Source: Rhabdothermincola salaria (GTDB lineage: Bacteria; Actinomycetota; Acidimicrobiia; Acidimicrobiales; Acidimicrobilacustridaceae). Taken from it: a DNA stretch of 64,000 nucleotides. The notes beneath the pieces are model-generated. The model saw only the letters and a program-made list of their open reading frames with translations, was not told the DNA's origin and did no database searches. Made by a program: the position numbers and the translations under genes. Of the stretch, positions 18,566-28,415 are shown one piece after another (positions within the stretch are counted from its first letter, which is position 1; each line of letters opens with the position of its first letter). The DNA is taken from assembly GCF_021246445.1 (NCBI RefSeq), contig NZ_JAJQXW010000002.1, positions 434,001 through 498,000 on the forward strand. The letters are read 5' to 3'.

Positions 18566-19585
18566 CTATGAACCCTCGACCGGCTCGGTGACCCAGCTGC
18601 GGACGGCCTCGACGATCGTCGAGGCCACCATCGAGGACCGTTCCACCACCACCGGAGCGGGGCCCAGGAAGCACACGACCGCGGGCATGCGCGTCTCGCG
18701 CAGGATGGGCAGGCGCAGCCCCGAGGCCCGGCTCTCGTCGATCCCAGCGACGCCGGGGAGACGTTCGGTGAGGAGCTCGGCCAGCTGGGCCCCGCCGACC
18801 GAACGGAAGCCCTCGGTGGCGTAGAAGGCGGTGCGGCACTCGGCGTGGGCGAGGAGCTCGAGGCCGATGTACAAGTCGGCGTCGAAGGCGTTGGCCTCGC
18901 GCGCCTGGGTGGACGGATCGGGGTGGTGCAGCACGGCCACCACGGCCCCTTCGTCGTGCAGGAGCCGACCGATGGCGGAGGCGAGCACGTCGAGGCCGCC
19001 GTGCTGACCGATGACGATCCGGCGTCGCTCGAGCTGTGGTGGTGCCGCCCGGAGCCGCTCGCGCTCGCGCACGCCCGCCACGCTGTCGGAAGTGGTGCGG
19101 CCCCCGAGCCGGGCGAGCGCGGCGCCCACCTCGGGACCGCACACCCCGTCGGTGGTGAGGCCCTGGTTGCGCTGGAACTGACGCAGGGCGCTCTCGGTCT
19201 GGGGGCCGAAGATGCCGTCGACGCGCCCGGCGTCGAAGCCGAGGGCGCCGAGGCCGAGCTGGAGGGCCTGGACGTCGTCGCCGCGCAGCATGGGGCTGCG
19301 CAGGTAGATGAGACGGTCGCCCAGCCGGTAGCCCGCTTCGACCAAGGCGTGCCAGGTGGCGTCGTCGCACAGGCCGGTGACGAGCAGACCTCGCTGCTCC
19401 TGGAAAGCCTCGATGGCGTGTTGCGTGCTCGGTCCGAAGATCCCCAGCTCGCCCCGATCGACAGTGATGCCTGTCAGGTGCAAGCGTTGCTGAACATCAC
19501 GGACAGCGGGGCCCTCCGCACCGGGGCCGAGAGGATCATCGACGACGATGACAGGTGGTCCGGGTGTGGGGCCCGAGCGGCTCAG
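18566..19585 (-). CDS. N-acetylmuramoyl-L-alanine amidase-like protein with two peptidoglycan-binding repeats (CwlM type)
   Basis: Two PG_binding_1 repeats come first (AVRDVQQRLHLTG...FGPSTQHAIEAFQEQRGL, then DDVQALQLGLGALGF...FGPQTESALRQFQRNQGL). An Amidase_3-like domain follows (RIVIGQHGG..., DADLYIGLELLAHAECRTAFYATEG, RASGLRLPILRETRMPAVVCFLG). Mycobacterial CwlM, at the same position by trxA, is a regulator of MurA rather than an active hydrolase, and that may apply here. No ATG, GTG or TTG lies between the trxA stop and the conserved start. CTG 19585, overlapping the trxA stop as CTGA, is the best candidate (339 aa). A GTG at 19816 would overlap trxA by 235 nt. Confidence 0.85.
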   Translation of the reverse strand: MSRSGPTPGPPVIVVDDPLGPGAEGPAVRDVQQRLHLTGITVDRGELGIFGPSTQHAIEAFQEQRGLLVTGLCDDATWHALVEAGYRLGDRLIYLRSPMLRGDDVQALQLGLGALGFDAGRVDGIFGPQTESALRQFQRNQGLTTDGVCGPEVGAALARLGGRTTSDSVAGVRERERLRAAPPQLERRRIVIGQHGGLDVLASAIGRLLHDEGAVVAVLHHPDPSTQAREANAFDADLYIGLELLAHAECRTAFYATEGFRSVGGAQLAELLTERLPGVAGIDESRASGLRLPILRETRMPAVVCFLGPAPVVVERSSMVASTIVEAVRSWVTEPVEGS

Positions 19586-19908
19586 AGGAAGGGTCGCAGA
19601 TCCTCGAGGAGCTGGCCCTTGCCCTTGGCCCCGACGATGCGGGCCGCTTCCTGACCGTCCTTGAACACGATCATGGTGGGGATGCTCATGACGCCGTAGC
19701 GGCGGGCCACATCGGGGTTGTCGTCGACGTTGAGCTTCGACACGGAGAGCTTGCCGGCCTGCTCGGAGGCGATCTCTTCGAGGATCGGGGCGATCATCTT
19801 GCACGGACCGCACCACTCGGCCCAGAAATCGACGATCACGGGCTCGGTGGCGGAGCCGATCTGCTCATCGAAGGTGGTGTCGGTGAGGTTGGAGATGGTG
19901 TCGGACAT
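19582..19908 (-). CDS. trxA: Thioredoxin
   Basis: Thioredoxin is the small protein disulfide reductase reduced by TrxB. It is 108 aa, the standard length, with active site WAEWCGPCKMIAPILEE, the cis-proline region MSIPTMIVFKDGQ, and a normal C-terminus. It lies 88 nt downstream of trxB on the same strand and likely shares its transcript. Its stop overlaps the candidate CTG start of the amidase gene. Confidence 0.97.
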   Translation of the reverse strand: MSDTISNLTDTTFDEQIGSATEPVIVDFWAEWCGPCKMIAPILEEIASEQAGKLSVSKLNVDDNPDVARRYGVMSIPTMIVFKDGQEAARIVGAKGKGQLLEDLRPFL

Positions 19909-19996: not shown

Positions 19997-20968
19997 TCAG
20001 TGGGCGTCGTTGGCCTCGAGCCAGCGCTCGGCGTCGATGGCGGCCATGCAGCCGGATCCGGCTGCGGTGATGGCCTGACGGTAGATCTGGTCCTGCACGT
20101 CGCCGCAGGCGAAGACGCCGTCGACGTCGGTGTGGCTGCCGTCGTGGGTGACGAGGTAGCCGTTGTCCTCCATGTGGAGCTGGCCCTTGAACAGGTCGGT
20201 GTTCGGCTTGTGGCCGATGGCGACGAACACCCCGCTGACGTCGAGACGGGATTCGTCGCCGGTGACGGTGTCGCGGACCAACAGGCCCTCGACCGTGCTC
20301 TCACCTTCGATCTTGGTCACGACGCTGTTCCACTGGAAGCGGATCTTGTCGTTGGCGAAGGCGCGGTCCTGCATGATCTTGGAGGCGCGCAGCTCGTCGC
20401 GGCGGTGCACGAGCGTGACGGAGCGGGCGAACTTGGTGAGGAACAGGGCTTCCTCGAGAGCGGAGTCGCCGCCGCCCACCACGGCGATGTCGTGGTCACG
20501 GAAGAAGAAGCCGTCGCAGGTGGCGCAGGTCGAGAGGCCGTGGCCGAGCAGTCGGCTCTCCTCGGGCAGCCCGAGCATGAGGGACTGGGCGCCGGTGGAG
20601 ACGATGACGACCTTGGCCCGGTAGGTGGGCTCGGCGGTGTCGGGATCGCCGACCCAGACCCCGAACGGGCGGCTGGAGAGGTCGACCCGGCTGACCTTGC
20701 GGGTGAGGATCTCGGTGCCGAAGCGGGTGGCCTGCTCGCGGAACCGCATCATCAGCTCGGGTCCCATGATGCCGTCGGGCCACCCGGGGAAGTTCTCCAC
20801 CTCGGTGGTCAGCATCAGCTGGCCACCCGGCTGGTCGCTGGTCGAGGACGGCTCGCCCTCGATGAGCAGCGGCTCGAGGTTGGCCCTCGCGGTGTAGATC
20901 GCGGCGGTGAGCCCGGCGGGGCCGGAGCCGATGATGATGACGTTGCGCACGTCGGGGCTGTCGGGCAT
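19997..20968 (-). CDS. trxB: Thioredoxin reductase
   Basis: TrxB is the FAD- and NADPH-dependent enzyme that reduces thioredoxin. It is 323 aa. The FAD-binding motif [19 protein letters not shown] is at the N-terminus, the redox-active site is [16 protein letters not shown] binding is [17 protein letters not shown], and the C-terminal FAD motif is [27 protein letters not shown] ribosome-binding sequence lies just upstream of the ATG. Confidence 0.97.
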
Positions 20969-21579: not shown

Positions 21580-22488
21580 TCAGACGGGGCCGACGAACAC
21601 CAGCGCGCAGTCGTCCGTGGTGACGACGCGGATGGTGTCGGCGACACCCGCGTCGTCGCCGGCGGTCACGACCGCGACGACGTCGCGCCCGTCGAGGACC
21701 GCACGAGCCGCCAACACGACGACGCCTGTCGGGGGGATCACCTCGGCCTCGCACGGCACCGCCGCGGCAGCATCGAAGGACTCCGGGGTGGGCGGTTCGG
21801 CACCAGCCGCGGCGGATCCCCGGTCTGCGGTGGGGTCGAGGGTGGCGCGGGCGGCGGCCACCAGCTCGTCGAGGGTGCGGACGGCACCGAGGTCGCCGAC
21901 CGCCGGGTCGGCGTCGCGTGCGAGTGGGCCGGCCGCCGACGGGGCGATCGTGGTGGTGGCGCTCTCCTCGACCGGGCTGCTCGACTGCGCTTCGGCCCCG
22001 GAGCCGGCATCGTCGGCGACCGATGCGGTGTCGTCGGAGCGCTGGTCCGACAGCGTGGTCCCGACCACGGCACCCAGGGCCACCACGACCACCGCGACGG
22101 CGGCGACCAGCCAGCGCGTGGCCGGTGGCCGTGCGCCCCGGCGAGGGTCCCGGCGCTGGGCGCGTCGCCCGGGGGCGGCCGCACCAGCGGCTCGGGAGAG
22201 GCCATCGGCAGGGTCGTCGTCCGCCATGGCCTCGAGAGCCCGGGCGACGTGCTCGTCGACCACGGATGCGTCGGGGCCCGCCGGCGGGACCTCGAGCTGG
22301 GAACGAACGACGCGGAGGGCCTCGACGTGCGCGGCCAGGTCGGCGCGCGACGCGACCAGGTGGTGCTGGGCGTCGGTGGCGTCGCCGTCGACGACGGCGT
22401 GCACGGCGAGCTCGTCGGTCGAGAGCTCACGGGTGAGCTCGTCGTCGAAGGGGTTCGGCTCCGGGCCGTTCGGGGGAGGGCTGGTCAT
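21580..22488 (-). CDS. Anti-sigma factor-like transmembrane protein
   Basis: This 302-aa protein is encoded 3' of an ECF sigma gene with an ATGA overlap, the hallmark of a sigma/anti-sigma pair. The cytoplasmic N-terminal part (LSTDELAVHAVVDGDATDAQ, then ALRVVRSQLEVPPA) is helical like an anti-sigma domain, although the HxxxCxxC zinc motif is absent. One membrane span (WLVAAVAVVVVALGAVVG, about residues 125-145) precedes a Ser/Ala-rich linker and an extracytoplasmic domain with two Cys. Role inferred from context. Confidence 0.7.
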   Translation of the reverse strand: MTSPPPNGPEPNPFDDELTRELSTDELAVHAVVDGDATDAQHHLVASRADLAAHVEALRVVRSQLEVPPAGPDASVVDEHVARALEAMADDDPADGLSRAAGAAAPGRRAQRRDPRRGARPPATRWLVAAVAVVVVALGAVVGTTLSDQRSDDTASVADDAGSGAEAQSSSPVEESATTTIAPSAAGPLARDADPAVGDLGAVRTLDELVAAARATLDPTADRGSAAAGAEPPTPESFDAAAAVPCEAEVIPPTGVVVLAARAVLDGRDVVAVVTAGDDAGVADTIRVVTTDDCALVFVGPV

Positions 22489-23084
22489 CGGTGATCGTCC
22501 TGTTCGACGTCGACCCCGGTCTCCTGGTTCCCGTGATCGGTGTCACCCGTCGGTCGAAGGGTCCGGGCGAGCGCAGCGCGGCCCCGGGCGATGCGTGAGC
22601 GGACGGTGCCGGCGGGGAGGTCGAGCACCTGGGCGATCTGGGCGTAGTCGAGGCCGAGGACGTCGCGCAGCACGACGGGGACACGGAAGGCCTCGGGGAG
22701 CTGGGCGAGGGCGGCGTCGAGGTCGAGGCGGTCGCTCACCCGGTGGTCGAGGTCAGGCGAGTCGTCACGAGGCCGATCCCAGGCATCGTCGTCGGGGTCG
22801 CCGCCGTGGGCGGTCTGCGCCGGTCGCAGCAGCGGGCGTCGTCGCTTCCGGCGCAGCTCGTCGACCGCGGCGTTGGTGGCGACCCGGTAGACCCACGTGG
22901 AGAGCGCCGAGCGCCCGTCGAAGCGGGGTAGGCCCCGCACGATGGCGATGAGGGCCTCCTGGGCGGCGTCGGCGGCATCGTCGTCGTCGCCGGTGAGTCG
23001 TCGGCAGAGGGCCCAGACCTGTGGTTGGTGGGCGCGCAGCAGCGTCTCCATCGCCCGGGGGTCGCCCTCGCGGGCTGCGGCCAC
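22485..23084 (-). CDS. ECF (group 4) RNA polymerase sigma factor
   Basis: This 199-aa extracytoplasmic-function sigma factor has region 2 in DDDDAADAAQEALIAIVRGL followed by PRFDGRSALSTWVYRVATNAAVDELRRKRRR. Region 4 is LAQLPEAFRVPVVLRDVLGLDYAQIAQVLDLPAGTVRSRIARGRAAL. It occupies the position of mycobacterial sigM, beside trxB/trxA. GTG 23084 is the start. The gene overlaps the anti-sigma gene by 4 nt. Likely targets are envelope-stress genes, by analogy only. Confidence 0.9.
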   Translation of the reverse strand: MAAAREGDPRAMETLLRAHQPQVWALCRRLTGDDDDAADAAQEALIAIVRGLPRFDGRSALSTWVYRVATNAAVDELRRKRRRPLLRPAQTAHGGDPDDDAWDRPRDDSPDLDHRVSDRLDLDAALAQLPEAFRVPVVLRDVLGLDYAQIAQVLDLPAGTVRSRIARGRAALARTLRPTGDTDHGNQETGVDVEQDDHR

Positions 23085-23115: not shown

Positions 23116-24654
23116 TCAACCCGCCAGCAGGATGTCGGAGACCGTCACCCGCAACGGGTCGTTCGTGCCGAGGTCGGTGATCCACACCAGCACAGCGGCT
23201 CCGGTGGCCCCTCCGAGGTCGAGCTCGACGTCGCCATCCACACCGTCGGCCCTCGCGATGGGCTCACCCCAGCCGGCGAGGGTGGGGGCGACGGCGTCGC
23301 TCACGTACACCTCGACGGCCCAGTCCTGGCTGGGGCTGTTGACCCGGATCCGTTCGAGGGAGCGGGCCTCGGGGAGCGTGAGGGCGATGCCCACACCGGT
23401 CTTGAGGTTGCCGAAGGCCCGGTTGGGGTACGTCTCGGTGTTCCAGGTGGTCGAGGGTTCGGCGTCGATCACGTTGCCGACGGTGGCCTCGTGCTCGCCG
23501 GGCGTGCCGATGCCCTGCGGGTCGAAGGACGTGACCCCGCTCACCGCGACGAGAGAGGGGGCGGTGGGCCCGGCACCGGGTGCCCGCGACAACAGGTCCT
23601 CCCCGAAGTCGGTGCGGGCCACCAGCAGGGCCACCAGGACGAGGGCGAGGGTGACCAGCACGCCGCTGACGACCATGGCGGTGGGGCGCCGGGAGCCGGC
23701 CGCGGGGGGTGCAGGTCCCGTGGCGGGGACGGTGTCCCAGGGGCCCGGCGGGGTGGCGGGGGACGCGCCCGTGGCCCAGCCTTCATCGACGTGGGTGGCG
23801 ACGGTGGCATCGCCCTCGGGGCGCACGGCCAACAGGGCGGTGCGGAGGTCGTCGGCGCGGGCGAAGCGATCGTCGGGTCGACGGGCGAGCGCCCGACGGA
23901 TCGCCTGGTCGAGCTCGGGGGGTACACCTCGCACCCGATCCGCGAGGGGAGGGGGGTCGTGCTGCAGGCGGCGCAGGGCGAGGGCGGCGGGGTTGTCGCC
24001 GACGAACGGCGGCGATCCGCACAGCGCCTCGTAGAGCACCGCGCCGAGGGCGTACACGTCGGTTCGGGCGTCGACCGGTGCCCCCTCGACCTGCTCGGGT
24101 GCCAGGTACTTCACCGTCCCCAGCAGGGTCGAGGTCTGGGTCATGTCGGGCTGGTCGAGCACCTTGGCGATGCCGAAGTCGGTGACGAGCACCCGACCGT
24201 CGTCGGACAGCAGGATGTTGGCCGGCTTCATGTCTCGGTGCACGATGCCGGCGCGGTGGGCGCAGGTCAGCGCGGCGGCGACGTCGGCGCCGATGTGGAC
24301 CACTTCGACCGGGTCGAGGCGCCCGCCCCGTTCGTCGAGGAACTCGCGCAGCGTGCGACCCCGCACCAGCTCCATCACGATGGCTTCGGTGCCGTCGTCG
24401 TTGCAGGTGTCGTAGATGGCCACGATGGACGGGTGGACCAAGCGGGCCACCGACACTGCCTCGGAGCGGAACCGGGCGCGGAAGCCCTCGTCGTCGGCGA
24501 GGTGGGGATGGAGGATCTTGACGGCCACGGCGCGGCCGAGGACCTGGTCGGTGGCCTGCCAGACCTCCGCCATGCCGCCACGGGCGAGGACGGCGTCGAG
24601 GCGGTACCGCCCACCGAGCGACCGCCCGGGAGCCAGCGCTGGCGCGTCGCTCAC
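23116..24654 (-). CDS. Ser/Thr protein kinase with MviN-type extracellular C-terminal domain
   Basis: The 512-aa protein has an N-terminal Hanks-type kinase (residues about 16-270). It has Lys46 in AVAVKIL, the catalytic loop HRDMKPANILL (139-149), DFG at 159-161 and GTVKYLAPEQ, so it looks catalytically competent. A Pro/Ala linker leads to one membrane span (about 327-347). The extracellular 366-512 domain (VSGVTSFDPQG..., NVIDAEPSTTWNTETYPN, NLKTGVGIALTLPEARSLERI, VLVWITDLG) is a beta-jellyroll/discoidin-like fold resembling the C-terminal domain of mycobacterial MviN. GTG 24654 is the start. The gene lies between the sigM-like gene and degV, where mycobacteria have mviN (murJ). Confidence 0.9.
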   Translation of the reverse strand: MSDAPALAPGRSLGGRYRLDAVLARGGMAEVWQATDQVLGRAVAVKILHPHLADDEGFRARFRSEAVSVARLVHPSIVAIYDTCNDDGTEAIVMELVRGRTLREFLDERGGRLDPVEVVHIGADVAAALTCAHRAGIVHRDMKPANILLSDDGRVLVTDFGIAKVLDQPDMTQTSTLLGTVKYLAPEQVEGAPVDARTDVYALGAVLYEALCGSPPFVGDNPAALALRRLQHDPPPLADRVRGVPPELDQAIRRALARRPDDRFARADDLRTALLAVRPEGDATVATHVDEGWATGASPATPPGPWDTVPATGPAPPAAGSRRPTAMVVSGVLVTLALVLVALLVARTDFGEDLLSRAPGAGPTAPSLVAVSGVTSFDPQGIGTPGEHEATVGNVIDAEPSTTWNTETYPNRAFGNLKTGVGIALTLPEARSLERIRVNSPSQDWAVEVYVSDAVAPTLAGWGEPIARADGVDGDVELDLGGATGAAVLVWITDLGTNDPLRVTVSDILLAG

Positions 24655-24692: not shown

Positions 24693-25532
24693 TCAGGACC
24701 GCAGATAGCAGATCCCGATGACCGCGGGACCGCCATGGGTGCCGATGACGGCACCGATCTTGCCCAGGCGGATGGTGTCGCGCGGATAGCGGTCGGAGAT
24801 CATGTCGAGGAAGTCGTCGATGTCCGTGGCCTCGCCGTGCAGGATCGACAGCGACTCGACCTCGCCGGCCTCGTAGAGCTTGTCGCGCAGCGTCTCGAGG
24901 GCCCGGCGCCGGGTGCGAGGCTTCCCGGCCTCCTCGACGGCCCCGTCGACGATGCGGATGAGCGGCTTCACCGACAGCATCGAGCCGAGGAGGTGCTGGG
25001 CCCCACCGATGCGACCGCCCTTCTTGAGGTTGTCGAGGGTGTTGAGGGCGCCGTAGATGTCGGTGCGCGGGATCATGCTCTCGACCCGGGCGACGATGGC
25101 GTCGGCGTCGGCACCGTCGCGGGCCATGGTGGCGGCCTCGAGGACCATGGTGCCGAGGCCGCCGGTGATCGACCGGCTGTCGACCACCCGGACGTCGACC
25201 TCGCCCTCGAGGGCGCGCGCCGCCGCCTGGGCCGACTGCATGGTGGCGGAGAGGGCGCTCGAGAGGTTGATGCAGACCACAGCGTCGGCGCCGGCGGCCT
25301 GGGCGTCGCGGAACGCCTGCTCGAAGCGGCCCGGCGAGGGGGCCGCGGTCTCGGGGAGCAGGCCCGTGCTGTCCATGAGCGAGTAGAAGCGTTCGACATC
25401 GAGCTCCTCGCGATCGACGTACTCGTCGTCGCCGAAGCGGATGCTCAGTGGCACCACGCCGATGTCGAGCGCCGTGGTGTCGGCCTCGTCCAGGTCGCAC
25501 GAGCTGTCGGTCACGATGCGCACTCCGGCCAT
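24693..25532 (-). CDS. DegV family fatty-acid-binding protein
   Basis: This 279-aa protein starts MAGVRIVTDSSCDLD, the N-terminal DegV signature. It also has LSIRFGDDEYVDREEL, CINLSSALSATMQSAQAAA and VDSRSITGGLGTMVLEAA, the lipid-contacting motifs, and NTLDNLKKGGRIGGAQ. DegV/FakB proteins bind fatty acids, in some bacteria delivering them to a FakA kinase; no fakA is present in this window. ATG 25532 has a GGGGGG-rich ribosome-binding region just upstream. It is followed after 38 nt by the kinase gene. Confidence 0.92.
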   Translation of the reverse strand: MAGVRIVTDSSCDLDEADTTALDIGVVPLSIRFGDDEYVDREELDVERFYSLMDSTGLLPETAAPSPGRFEQAFRDAQAAGADAVVCINLSSALSATMQSAQAAARALEGEVDVRVVDSRSITGGLGTMVLEAATMARDGADADAIVARVESMIPRTDIYGALNTLDNLKKGGRIGGAQHLLGSMLSVKPLIRIVDGAVEEAGKPRTRRRALETLRDKLYEAGEVESLSILHGEATDIDDFLDMISDRYPRDTIRLGKIGAVIGTHGGPAVIGICYLRS

Positions 25533-25599
25533 GGGCCCCCCTTTCGTCGTGTGGTTGGAGCGTATCCCCGCTGCTCGGGCCCTCCCGGTCGTGGCCGAC

Positions 25600-27687
25600 T
25601 CACCGAGTGGGGTCGGGCTCACCGAAGACCGGGTGGTCCGACGCCACCAGCTGGCGGGCCCGGCGCACCTTGCGGAAGTGGCGGCCCCACCAGACGAGGA
25701 GGAAGACGCCGGCGCCGATGGACAGCACGAGTCCGGCTCCCGAGATGGCGGTGGAGCGCACGGTGAAGCTGGTGGAGGTGATGTCGAGCACCTCGTCGGG
25801 GGAGCGGACGCCCACCTCGAGGGGGAACGCTCCCGAGGCCCGGGTGGTGACCTCGACGTCGAGACGGGTGGTGGCGGCGGCCGGGAGCTCCACGTCGATG
25901 ACGTTGCCGGCCGGGAACTCGAGCTTCACGCTGTCGAGGACCAGGTGGATGCGCACCGGGTAGGGGAGCCGGTTCTCGAGGTTGAGCGGGATCTTCCCCG
26001 AACGAGAGGTCAGCGTCACGTACTGCTGCAGCGGCGCGACGATCTCGCTCGTGGCCGCATCGATGCGCGTCGTGACCGTGTCGAGGATGTCGGCGCGCTC
26101 GGCGGCGTCGAGCGAGATCGCGCCGGAGAGCAGCAGCGCTCGGGCGAGGCCTTCGGCGAGGGTCGGCGACGCGGGCTCGGTGAGCGACCGGTACCCGGTC
26201 ACCTGTCGCTCGGCGGCGCGCAGCTCGCTCGGATAGTCACCGAGCGAGGTGGGTGGGTCGCTGCGGTAGTCGAGGACGAGGTCGGTGGCTCCGCTCTGGT
26301 CCTCGGCGGCCTCGGTGACCCGGAACAGGTCGTCGAGGGTGACGGGGCTGACCATCGGGCGGCCGTCGGAGTCGGGCGGCGCCGGTTGGGCGAGCCCGGC
26401 GAGGAGCGTGGTGAGCGTCTGGGGGTCGGTGTCGGTGCCGAGGTCGAGGGCCACGCCGCGGCTCTCGCCGGGCCGGTCGTTGTAGAGCACGGCGAGATCG
26501 GCCAGTACGAGGTGGGCGTTGAGCACGGGGTCGTCGGTGGCGCGTAGGCGGCCGGCCAGGTCGGGGTCGGCGGTGACGGCGGACAGCGACGAGCCGTCGC
26601 CGACCGCGAGCTCGAAGACGTCGGTGAAGGTGACGTCGGTGGTGGGCGGGTCGACGAGCTGGTCGGTGGGCACGACGACCTGGTCGAGGCCGAGTCCGTC
26701 GAGGCGCCGGAGGGCCTCGGGGGTGAGCGTCGGGTCGGCCACGGTGGTGCGGCCGTCGGGTGTCACGCCGAGCAGTTCGGCGGTCGTCGTCGCCCCCTGG
26801 GCCAGCTGGACGTCGAGCTCGGGGTCGAGCCGGGCCGCCACCCACGCACCGAGGTCGAGCCGGACGTAGGGCTCGACGAGGACCTGGCGGCCGGCCAGGT
26901 GCCCGGCGAGGGCATCGACCGGGGAGGGGTCGGCGCTGCTCGTGGAGGTGCCCTCCAGAGCCGCCAGCACGGCGGGGACGGGATCGACGGTGAGCGCCAC
27001 CGAAGGGTGCTCGGTGAGGGCGTCGATCGTGGCGAGCGCCTGGGTGGTGTCGGCGGCGTCGAGGGAAAGCTCGTCGGCCTCGGTCGGGGTCACCGTCCCG
27101 CCGATGCCCAGCACCGTCCCGACGGCGAGGGAGGGACCTTCGGTGTCGTCGGTGGGGACGCGGATCAGATGGGTGACGAGGCGGGCCAGCTCGTCGCCGT
27201 CGGGGCCCATGGCCTTCACCACCACCGGGTGCACGCCGGGCCCCGAGAGCAGCACCCCACCCTCGGGCACGGGGCCGGTGCGGACCACGGGCACGGCGAT
27301 CTCGACCGCTCCGTTCGTGGCCCGCGGCGCGGTGTCGACCGGGACGGGGCTCGGACCCGGGCCGAGCGGGCTGGACAGGTCCTCCCCGCGGATCGAGCGC
27401 TCGAAGCGGATCCGCCCGATGGAGGCGGCGTGGACGTCGACCTCGATCGTGGAACCGGCGGGAAGCCCTTGGGGGAGCACCTGGATGCGGAACTCGCCGG
27501 TGGGGGCCGTCCACGGGGTCTGGCCGGCGAGGGTCAGGCGGGGCACGGTGCCGGTGGGGGTGGTGTCCTGGGCCCGGGCCGGGCGGGAGGTGGTCGTCGA
27601 CAGCGCCGAGGCGACCAGCAGGATCGCGGCGAGGACGAGCCACCGCCGCCCCCGTGTCGTGGGCGGATGGTCCGCGGCGGCGCTCAC
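25600..27687 (-). CDS. DUF6049 family secreted/membrane protein (Rv3909-like)
   Basis: This 695-aa protein has an N-terminal signal peptide (WLVLAAILLVASALSTTTSRPARAQ), a long extracytoplasmic region of Ala/Thr/Asp-rich domains, and a single C-terminal span (AISGAGLVLSIGAGVFLLVWWGRHFRK) with a short cytoplasmic basic tail. Such proteins sit beside mviN/murJ and pcnA in mycobacteria (Rv3909) and are of unknown function, presumably envelope-related. The GTG start overlaps the upstream GNAT stop (GTGA), so the two are translationally coupled. Confidence 0.82.
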   Translation of the reverse strand: MSAAADHPPTTRGRRWLVLAAILLVASALSTTTSRPARAQDTTPTGTVPRLTLAGQTPWTAPTGEFRIQVLPQGLPAGSTIEVDVHAASIGRIRFERSIRGEDLSSPLGPGPSPVPVDTAPRATNGAVEIAVPVVRTGPVPEGGVLLSGPGVHPVVVKAMGPDGDELARLVTHLIRVPTDDTEGPSLAVGTVLGIGGTVTPTEADELSLDAADTTQALATIDALTEHPSVALTVDPVPAVLAALEGTSTSSADPSPVDALAGHLAGRQVLVEPYVRLDLGAWVAARLDPELDVQLAQGATTTAELLGVTPDGRTTVADPTLTPEALRRLDGLGLDQVVVPTDQLVDPPTTDVTFTDVFELAVGDGSSLSAVTADPDLAGRLRATDDPVLNAHLVLADLAVLYNDRPGESRGVALDLGTDTDPQTLTTLLAGLAQPAPPDSDGRPMVSPVTLDDLFRVTEAAEDQSGATDLVLDYRSDPPTSLGDYPSELRAAERQVTGYRSLTEPASPTLAEGLARALLLSGAISLDAAERADILDTVTTRIDAATSEIVAPLQQYVTLTSRSGKIPLNLENRLPYPVRIHLVLDSVKLEFPAGNVIDVELPAAATTRLDVEVTTRASGAFPLEVGVRSPDEVLDITSTSFTVRSTAISGAGLVLSIGAGVFLLVWWGRHFRKVRRARQLVASDHPVFGEPDPTR

Positions 27688-28415
27688 GGCGTCGTCGCCG
27701 GGGTGGGTCGGCCGAGGGGGTGCTCGAGCACGGCCAGCCCGTAGGGCTCGGGGGTGAAGCCGAGGTGCTGGTAGAGCCCGAGGGCGCGCTGGTTCGTCTC
27801 CTGGGTGTTCACGAGCACGGACCGACAGCCGTGGCGGCGGCACCAGGCGAGCGCATCGCCGACCAGGGCGGTGCCCAGGCCTCCGCCCTGGTGGGCGGGA
27901 TCGACGGCGAGACGTTGGAGGTACCCGAGGCGTCCCGCTCGCCCGGTCACGTGGTAGCCCACCACCCGGCGGTGGGCGCCGGCCACCCGGAAGCGGTGCG
28001 ACGGGGTGGCGGAGCGGGCGTCGGCCAGGCCGGCGCGGTCGAAGCGCCAGAAGCTGTCGAAGGCGGCGCCGTCGACGGCCAGCACGGCGTCGAGGTCACC
28101 TCGTCGCCCCCGGCGGAGCCGGGCGTTCGGGGTGCGCGGCGGAGGGATCCGGTCGAGGGGGTGGCGCAGCAGGTGGAGGCGCTCGTGCACGGTGAACCCG
28201 GCGCGGAGGAACGGCTGCTGCTCTCCGTGGGTGAGCGCCGGGGTGATGACCGTGCGGTAGCCCTGCTCGACGACGCGCTGCAGGGCTTCGGCGAGCCCGC
28301 CCGGGGTGGGAGCCACGCCGGCGGTGGGGCTGAGCAGCGCCACGGCGTCGTCGCCCCGCCACGAGCCCAGGCGCAACCGGTCGGAGCCGGTGGAGAGGGT
28401 GTCGAGTCGTCGCAT
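27684..28415 (-). CDS. GNAT family N-acetyltransferase
   Basis: This 243-aa protein has a C-terminal GNAT fold: LGYLQRLAVDPAHQGGGLGTALVGDALAWCRRHGCRSVLV, containing the acetyl-CoA-binding R/Q-x-x-G-x-G/A loop (HQGGGLG), then NTQETNQRALGLYQHLGFTPE. The N-terminal half (residues 1-100) is a degenerate GNAT-like domain (TPGGLAEALQRVVEQGYRTVITPALT...FLRAGFTVHERLHLL), so it may be a tandem or two-domain GNAT. ATG 28415 is chosen; AAGG lies just upstream. The substrate is unknown. It is the first gene of a GNAT-DUF6049 operon. Confidence 0.85.
   Translation of the reverse strand: MRRLDTLSTGSDRLRLGSWRGDDAVALLSPTAGVAPTPGGLAEALQRVVEQGYRTVITPALTHGEQQPFLRAGFTVHERLHLLRHPLDRIPPPRTPNARLRRGRRGDLDAVLAVDGAAFDSFWRFDRAGLADARSATPSHRFRVAGAHRRVVGYHVTGRAGRLGYLQRLAVDPAHQGGGLGTALVGDALAWCRRHGCRSVLVNTQETNQRALGLYQHLGFTPEPYGLAVLEHPLGRPTPATTP

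Follow-up and report, generated by a model that had tools for sequence, protein, structure and literature searches.

In the window, by which we mean the whole 64-kb stretch of DNA analysed, a receptor-type Ser/Thr kinase gene occupies positions 23116..24654 of the minus strand, the reading frame and strand given by the first-pass annotation. The gene starts with GTG, encodes 512 aa and has orthologues across the family. It belongs to a series of minus-strand genes in the order DUF6049, DegV, kinase, sigM-like, probable anti-sigma, trxB, trxA and CwlM-position gene, in which the DUF6049 gene is Rv3909-like (25600..27843; PF19516, E 7.4e-20) and the DegV-family gene (24693..25622; Pfam DegV, E 8.4e-80) stands where it is found in most loci of the class. 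The slot between sigM and DUF6049 does hold the kinase, as previously described, but it contains two genes rather than one because the DegV gene, which had been missed, sits between the kinase and DUF6049. The gene described as sigM-like (22485..23084) lies 31 bases downstream of the kinase gene on the same strand; an ECF sigma factor is indeed in place there, but its score of 128.8 bits falls below the SigM equivalog cut-off of 190. Further along are a probable anti-sigma factor gene (21580..22488), assigned from its position and with no family match, the thioredoxin reductase gene trxB (19997..20968), a locus marker of conserved order, and the CwlM-position gene (18566..19816), which is conserved in position and encodes two peptidoglycan-binding domains (PG_binding_1, E 3.2e-33), with no amidase domain detected in its product. 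No sigma-70 or terminator-like sites were seen around the locus. The kinase gene lies between DUF6049 and sigM/trxB, the position that characterizes the MviN-tail family.

The encoded protein comprises a kinase domain, a span and an ectodomain, in that order. The kinase domain (residues 12-277; 23824..24621, minus strand, as are all features below) matches Pkinase of Pfam with E 5.7e-45, and the nearest solved kinases are PknB and PknA (E 1e-65 to 1e-58; PknB 1.5e-65). Hydropathy predicts a single, strongly hydrophobic membrane span at about residues 327-345 (23620..23676), with basic residues toward the kinase side, and the remainder is an ectodomain of the MviN C-terminal domain (CTD) type with a CBM32/F5-8C jellyroll fold (residues 366-512; 23119..23559). 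As the first-pass annotation had reported, the kinase motifs are intact, comprising VAVK43-46 (K46 codon at 24517-24519), HRD139-141 (24232-24240), N146 and DFG159-161 (24172-24180), and the activation loop carries a PknB-like TQT at residues 172-174 (24133-24141), which we take to be the counterpart of the activation-loop Thr pair of PknB. With K46, D141 and D159 all present, the protein does not qualify as a pseudokinase in the sense applied to MviN, and its motifs and activation loop give it the appearance of a catalytic kinase. The single span was borne out, as was the lack of a flippase part: only kinase families match the protein, and no MurJ flippase domain was found in it. The PASTA kinase model NF033483 reached 372 bits against a cut-off of 450 and covered the kinase part alone, and family models gave no match to PASTA repeats. 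When the juxtamembrane region was searched for an FhaA-docking Thr, the conserved T(D/E)x(I/L/M) context of the fused proteins could not be clearly matched in the window protein. Both active and dead kinases from nine family codes carry a conserved juxtamembrane motif, SFxRxE(G/R)RWL, just before the span (L045, L052, L059, L062, L064, L089, L104, L105, L107, and further L274, L281, L296, L305, L308, L316, L329 and L336); it is absent from the window protein. A search of genome contigs with a single protein gave mostly relatives from Microthrixaceae and, in other genera, PknAB loci.

The survey covered 40 DUF6049 loci of the class and another 40 from elsewhere in the phylum. The commonest order among the class loci was DUF6049, murJ, DegV, kinase-CTD, sigM, anti-sigma, trxB, trxA, CwlM and parB. 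Kinase and sigM were adjacent in most loci surveyed, and this, together with the close spacing of the two genes in the window, would suit a kinase that serves the downstream sigM/anti-sigma and thioredoxin genes, its ectodomain sensing envelope stress and its kinase domain phosphorylating the anti-sigma factor. The same can be said of the congener G035 (L182), where one stretch of loss took the ectodomain, sigM and the anti-sigma gene together, and a motif-intact kinase ends just past its span. However, kinase-CTD genes are retained with no sigM match in L031, L032, L035, L054 and L055, and the homologous MviN tails act on the flippase and FhaA in mycobacteria (PMC6180346); we consider a dedication of the kinase to the sigM genes unlikely. 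Two other arrangements were seen in the survey. In L063 and L089 a single uninterrupted frame (1277 and 1588 aa between stops) spans DUF6049 and MurJ, possibly a further fusion, and in L080, L081 and L082, which belong to a single family, DUF6049 and murJ are present but the stretch gave no kinase-CTD match.

The first-pass annotation had also proposed that the kinase replaces MviN/MurJ, having noted, as we confirmed, that the 64-kb window contains no murJ. A search of the whole genome found one murJ, which encodes a plain flippase of 540 aa without kinase or ectodomain and adjoins pspA-, proA- and proB-like genes on contig C1, another contig than that of the kinase; the three-part MviN that might have lain elsewhere in the genome was not found. 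Among the 40 class loci, murJ occupied the slot in 20 and stood alongside the kinase as a separate gene in 16, and outside the class 17/40 loci held both as separate genes. The two are thus normally neighbours. The slot lacks murJ in the window's family and in several other families, and murJ was found elsewhere in 31 of 31 genomes checked, most of them without a slot murJ, often near pspA/proA/proB. In the MurJ tree, the copy of the window genome clusters with the unlinked copies from the rest of its family, which as a set sit near slot copies of Acidimicrobiia. Replacement is not supported, given the murJ-kinase neighbourhood elsewhere and the stand-alone murJ of this genome; murJ appears to have left the slot without the kinase taking its place. 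In some genomes of the order (L161, L170, L172 and L175) a very distant, long-branch MurJ is found at or near pspA/proA/proB, giving the impression that murJ was exchanged at that site.

To follow the kinase across the phylum we searched 396 genomes for the CTD, which was present in 199, and examined the kinase state of 131 distinct CTD proteins from 100 genera and 43 family codes. Lys, HxD and DF(G/A) were kept in 96 of these proteins. Eleven of the 131 were fused to MurJ, all with dead kinases and all from the Mycobacterium-containing family; the remaining unfused proteins were 23 dead kinases and one fragment whose kinase could not be read. Separate kinase-CTD genes occurred in 42/43 families, and in 33 of the 43 such a kinase was motif-intact. 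In streptomycete-like and related genomes the dead kinase is a separate gene. The labels streptomycete-like and Mycobacterium-containing were inferred from architecture and from the PDB match of L070. A large CTD tree (131 rows, 138 columns) was poorly resolved and used for counts alone; it contained 13 changes between active and dead kinases on the best tree, five of them forced by well-supported branches.

Among the 40 loci outside the class, a single open reading frame joining MurJ, a kinase-like domain and the CTD was found at seven, all of one family (L070-L075 and L077). L070 is MviN: MurJ is matched by its front part, and the solved MviN pseudokinase (3OUN, 3UQC, 3OTV; E about 1e-126) by its middle. 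In fused MviN the catalytic Lys is replaced by Thr, HRD by LSI, and no DFG aligns. In a smaller and better resolved CTD tree the fused CTDs formed one clade (support 99/95), and a clade uniting them with the streptomycete-type pseudokinases was not rejected (p 0.53); in the MurJ tree, fused MurJ grouped with streptomycete-type slot MurJ with support of 100. Two Mycobacterium-type genomes, represented by L307 (G422) and L346 (G294), contain both a fused MviN and a motif-intact PknI-like kinase bearing an MviN-type CTD. This CTD falls within the MviN clade, suggesting that the MviN ectodomain was acquired by an active kinase. Besides its fused MviN, G422 also encodes a stand-alone MviN-like pseudokinase-CTD protein (L352; 557 aa) that lacks a flippase part.

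The captured ectodomains of L307 and L346 show that such exchange can be envisaged at the locus itself, where an ectodomain homologous to that of MviN might have been joined to a kinase domain taken independently from a PknB-type kinase. The kinase-domain tree, from which the fused and streptomycete-type pseudokinases were omitted as too diverged, would allow this, as it left the unfused locus kinases unresolved as one clade. Yet a single origin was not rejected either (p-AU 0.46), the kinase holds the same locus position throughout the phylum, and the fused pseudokinases are still picked up by the KIN profile, in register and directly before the CTD. Independent capture of the kinase domain consequently strikes us as improbable.

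The fused proteins also bear on the two histories that the first-pass annotation had offered, namely a split of the MviN module and an ancestral state preceding the fusion. If the window kinase were a remnant of a three-part MviN that split in its own lineage, the separate state would be secondary, and the three parts do exist as separate genes in this genome. Against this stand the separate kinase-CTD genes in nearly every family, most of these families with active members, and the restriction of the fusion to the one Mycobacterium-holding family, always with a dead kinase, which would have had to regain every catalytic residue. We regard a split as very improbable. The ancestral reading fits the distribution of motif-intact separate kinases, and a pre-fusion state for the window kinase is supported.

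The relationship of the ectodomain to the MviN CTD was assessed with profiles built from each group alone, Acidimicrobiia only or fused only, to avoid circularity. The Acidimicrobiia-only profile matched 7/7 fused MviN proteins (E 1e-29 to 3e-19), the fused-only profile matched 28/28 Acidimicrobiia CTDs (E 7e-22 to 2e-9), and hhalign of the two profiles gave a probability of 99.8. In most of 17 genomes the CTD was single-copy, any second match being weak, and a true second copy occurred in two. The structural model of the ectodomain (pLDDT 95.1) adopts the CBM32/F5-8C jellyroll fold, with alginate- and chitosan-type carbohydrate-binding modules (CBM32) as best structural matches (Foldseek E 1e-7; VIA Z 15.8, rmsd 2.1 over 122 residues). 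Sequence ties to such domains are weak: a Pfam search with the window CTD itself gave no match, its homologues match F5_F8_type_C and CBM_AftD weakly (best homologue 1.1e-7), and the CTD alone, run with phmmer against the PDB, found nothing meaningful (best E 0.47). Since the fold is CBM32-like and the sequence ties to F5/8C are weak, the ectodomain, with its signature FGxLKxGVGL...WIT, is a distinct family within this carbohydrate-binding fold. That it might be just one of many unrelated discoidin domains, like MviN in fold alone, finds some encouragement in the shared fold and the weak Pfam matches but is contradicted by the reciprocal profiles (E 1e-29 to 2e-9, where solved F5/8C proteins reach at best 3.7e-5 against the family profile) and by the usual single copy per genome, and deserves almost no credence. 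Judged by sequence profiles, the ectodomain is homologous to that of MviN and far closer to it than to other discoidin/CBM32 domains; the MviN-like C-terminal domain of the first-pass annotation was upheld, and the grouping with unrelated discoidin domains that would have spoken against it did not occur, despite the fold.

Taking these lines together, it is rather probable that the receptor Ser/Thr kinase of an ancient actinobacterial murJ locus is the free-standing form of the pseudokinase-ectodomain tail of mycobacterial MviN. We propose, with a probability of about 0.7, that a phylum-wide receptor kinase with a CBM32-like, wall-sensing ectodomain was the original partner of murJ, that catalysis disappeared repeatedly from proteins that retained the ectodomain, and that one dead copy was fused to murJ to give MviN. 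The simplest order of events is a separate active kinase, then loss of catalysis, then fusion, and in the Mycobacterium-containing family it would have been an already dead kinase copy that was joined to the upstream murJ gene. The window protein is most likely a wall-glycan-sensing receptor kinase, for which we infer both ligand and substrates. Its kinase domain would face the cytoplasm, and its ectodomain may bind wall glycan or a lipid-linked precursor. Binding could bring kinases together for autophosphorylation on the TQT loop, after which the activated kinase might phosphorylate regulators of wall synthesis that FHA proteins recognize. Mycobacterial FhaA is bound by phosphorylated MviN, and CwlM switches between FhaA and MurJ (PMC6180346, PMC10166564); these links make FhaA, the CwlM-like protein and MurJ the first candidate substrates. 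An FhaA_N+FHA protein, a PP2C phosphatase and a separate PASTA kinase are all present in the genome.

Accounts of MviN regulation in mycobacteria involve a dead kinase that depends on phosphorylation by PknB. If the MviN tail descends from a self-sufficient sensor kinase still present in many actinobacteria, the ancestral ligand and substrates become accessible to study in those with the active form, and ideas on how a tuberculosis cell-wall regulator arose can be tested. We found no described function of the MviN ectodomain in the literature; if our proposal is true, it gains a concrete hypothesis, glycan binding. The repeated loss of catalysis with retention of the ectodomain suggests that the ectodomain or scaffold function is the more conserved one. 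According to an earlier study, the extended pseudokinase domain seems limited to organisms with an arabinogalactan layer (PMC10166564), a statement that our results qualify, as the fusion appears confined to arabinogalactan-bearing organisms and the module is not. Relative to that study, the tail homology, the intact motifs, the phylum-wide range and the recurrent loss of catalysis appear new, and, subscription papers aside, we found no earlier paper stating the same ectodomain, intact motifs and recurrent catalysis loss.

Of the known systems, the closest is MviN (Rv3910) of mycobacteria and corynebacteria, which shares with the window protein a homologous ectodomain, a kinase fold before one span and the gene neighbourhood. 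In contrast to MviN, the window protein has no flippase part, its motifs are intact, a DegV gene adjoins it and murJ lies elsewhere. The 'protein kinase family protein' noted in 2023 as often encoded downstream of actinobacterial mviN orthologues without the extension (PMC10166564, S6 Fig legend) very probably belongs to the same gene family, to judge by its position. The PknB/PASTA receptor kinases have the closest kinase domain, the same receptor layout and the activation-loop TQT, whereas the window kinase has a CBM32-like ectodomain and no PASTA repeats. Finally, CBM32 and F5/8 type C domains have the same fold as the ectodomain, which is related to them weakly in sequence and bears a signature of its own.
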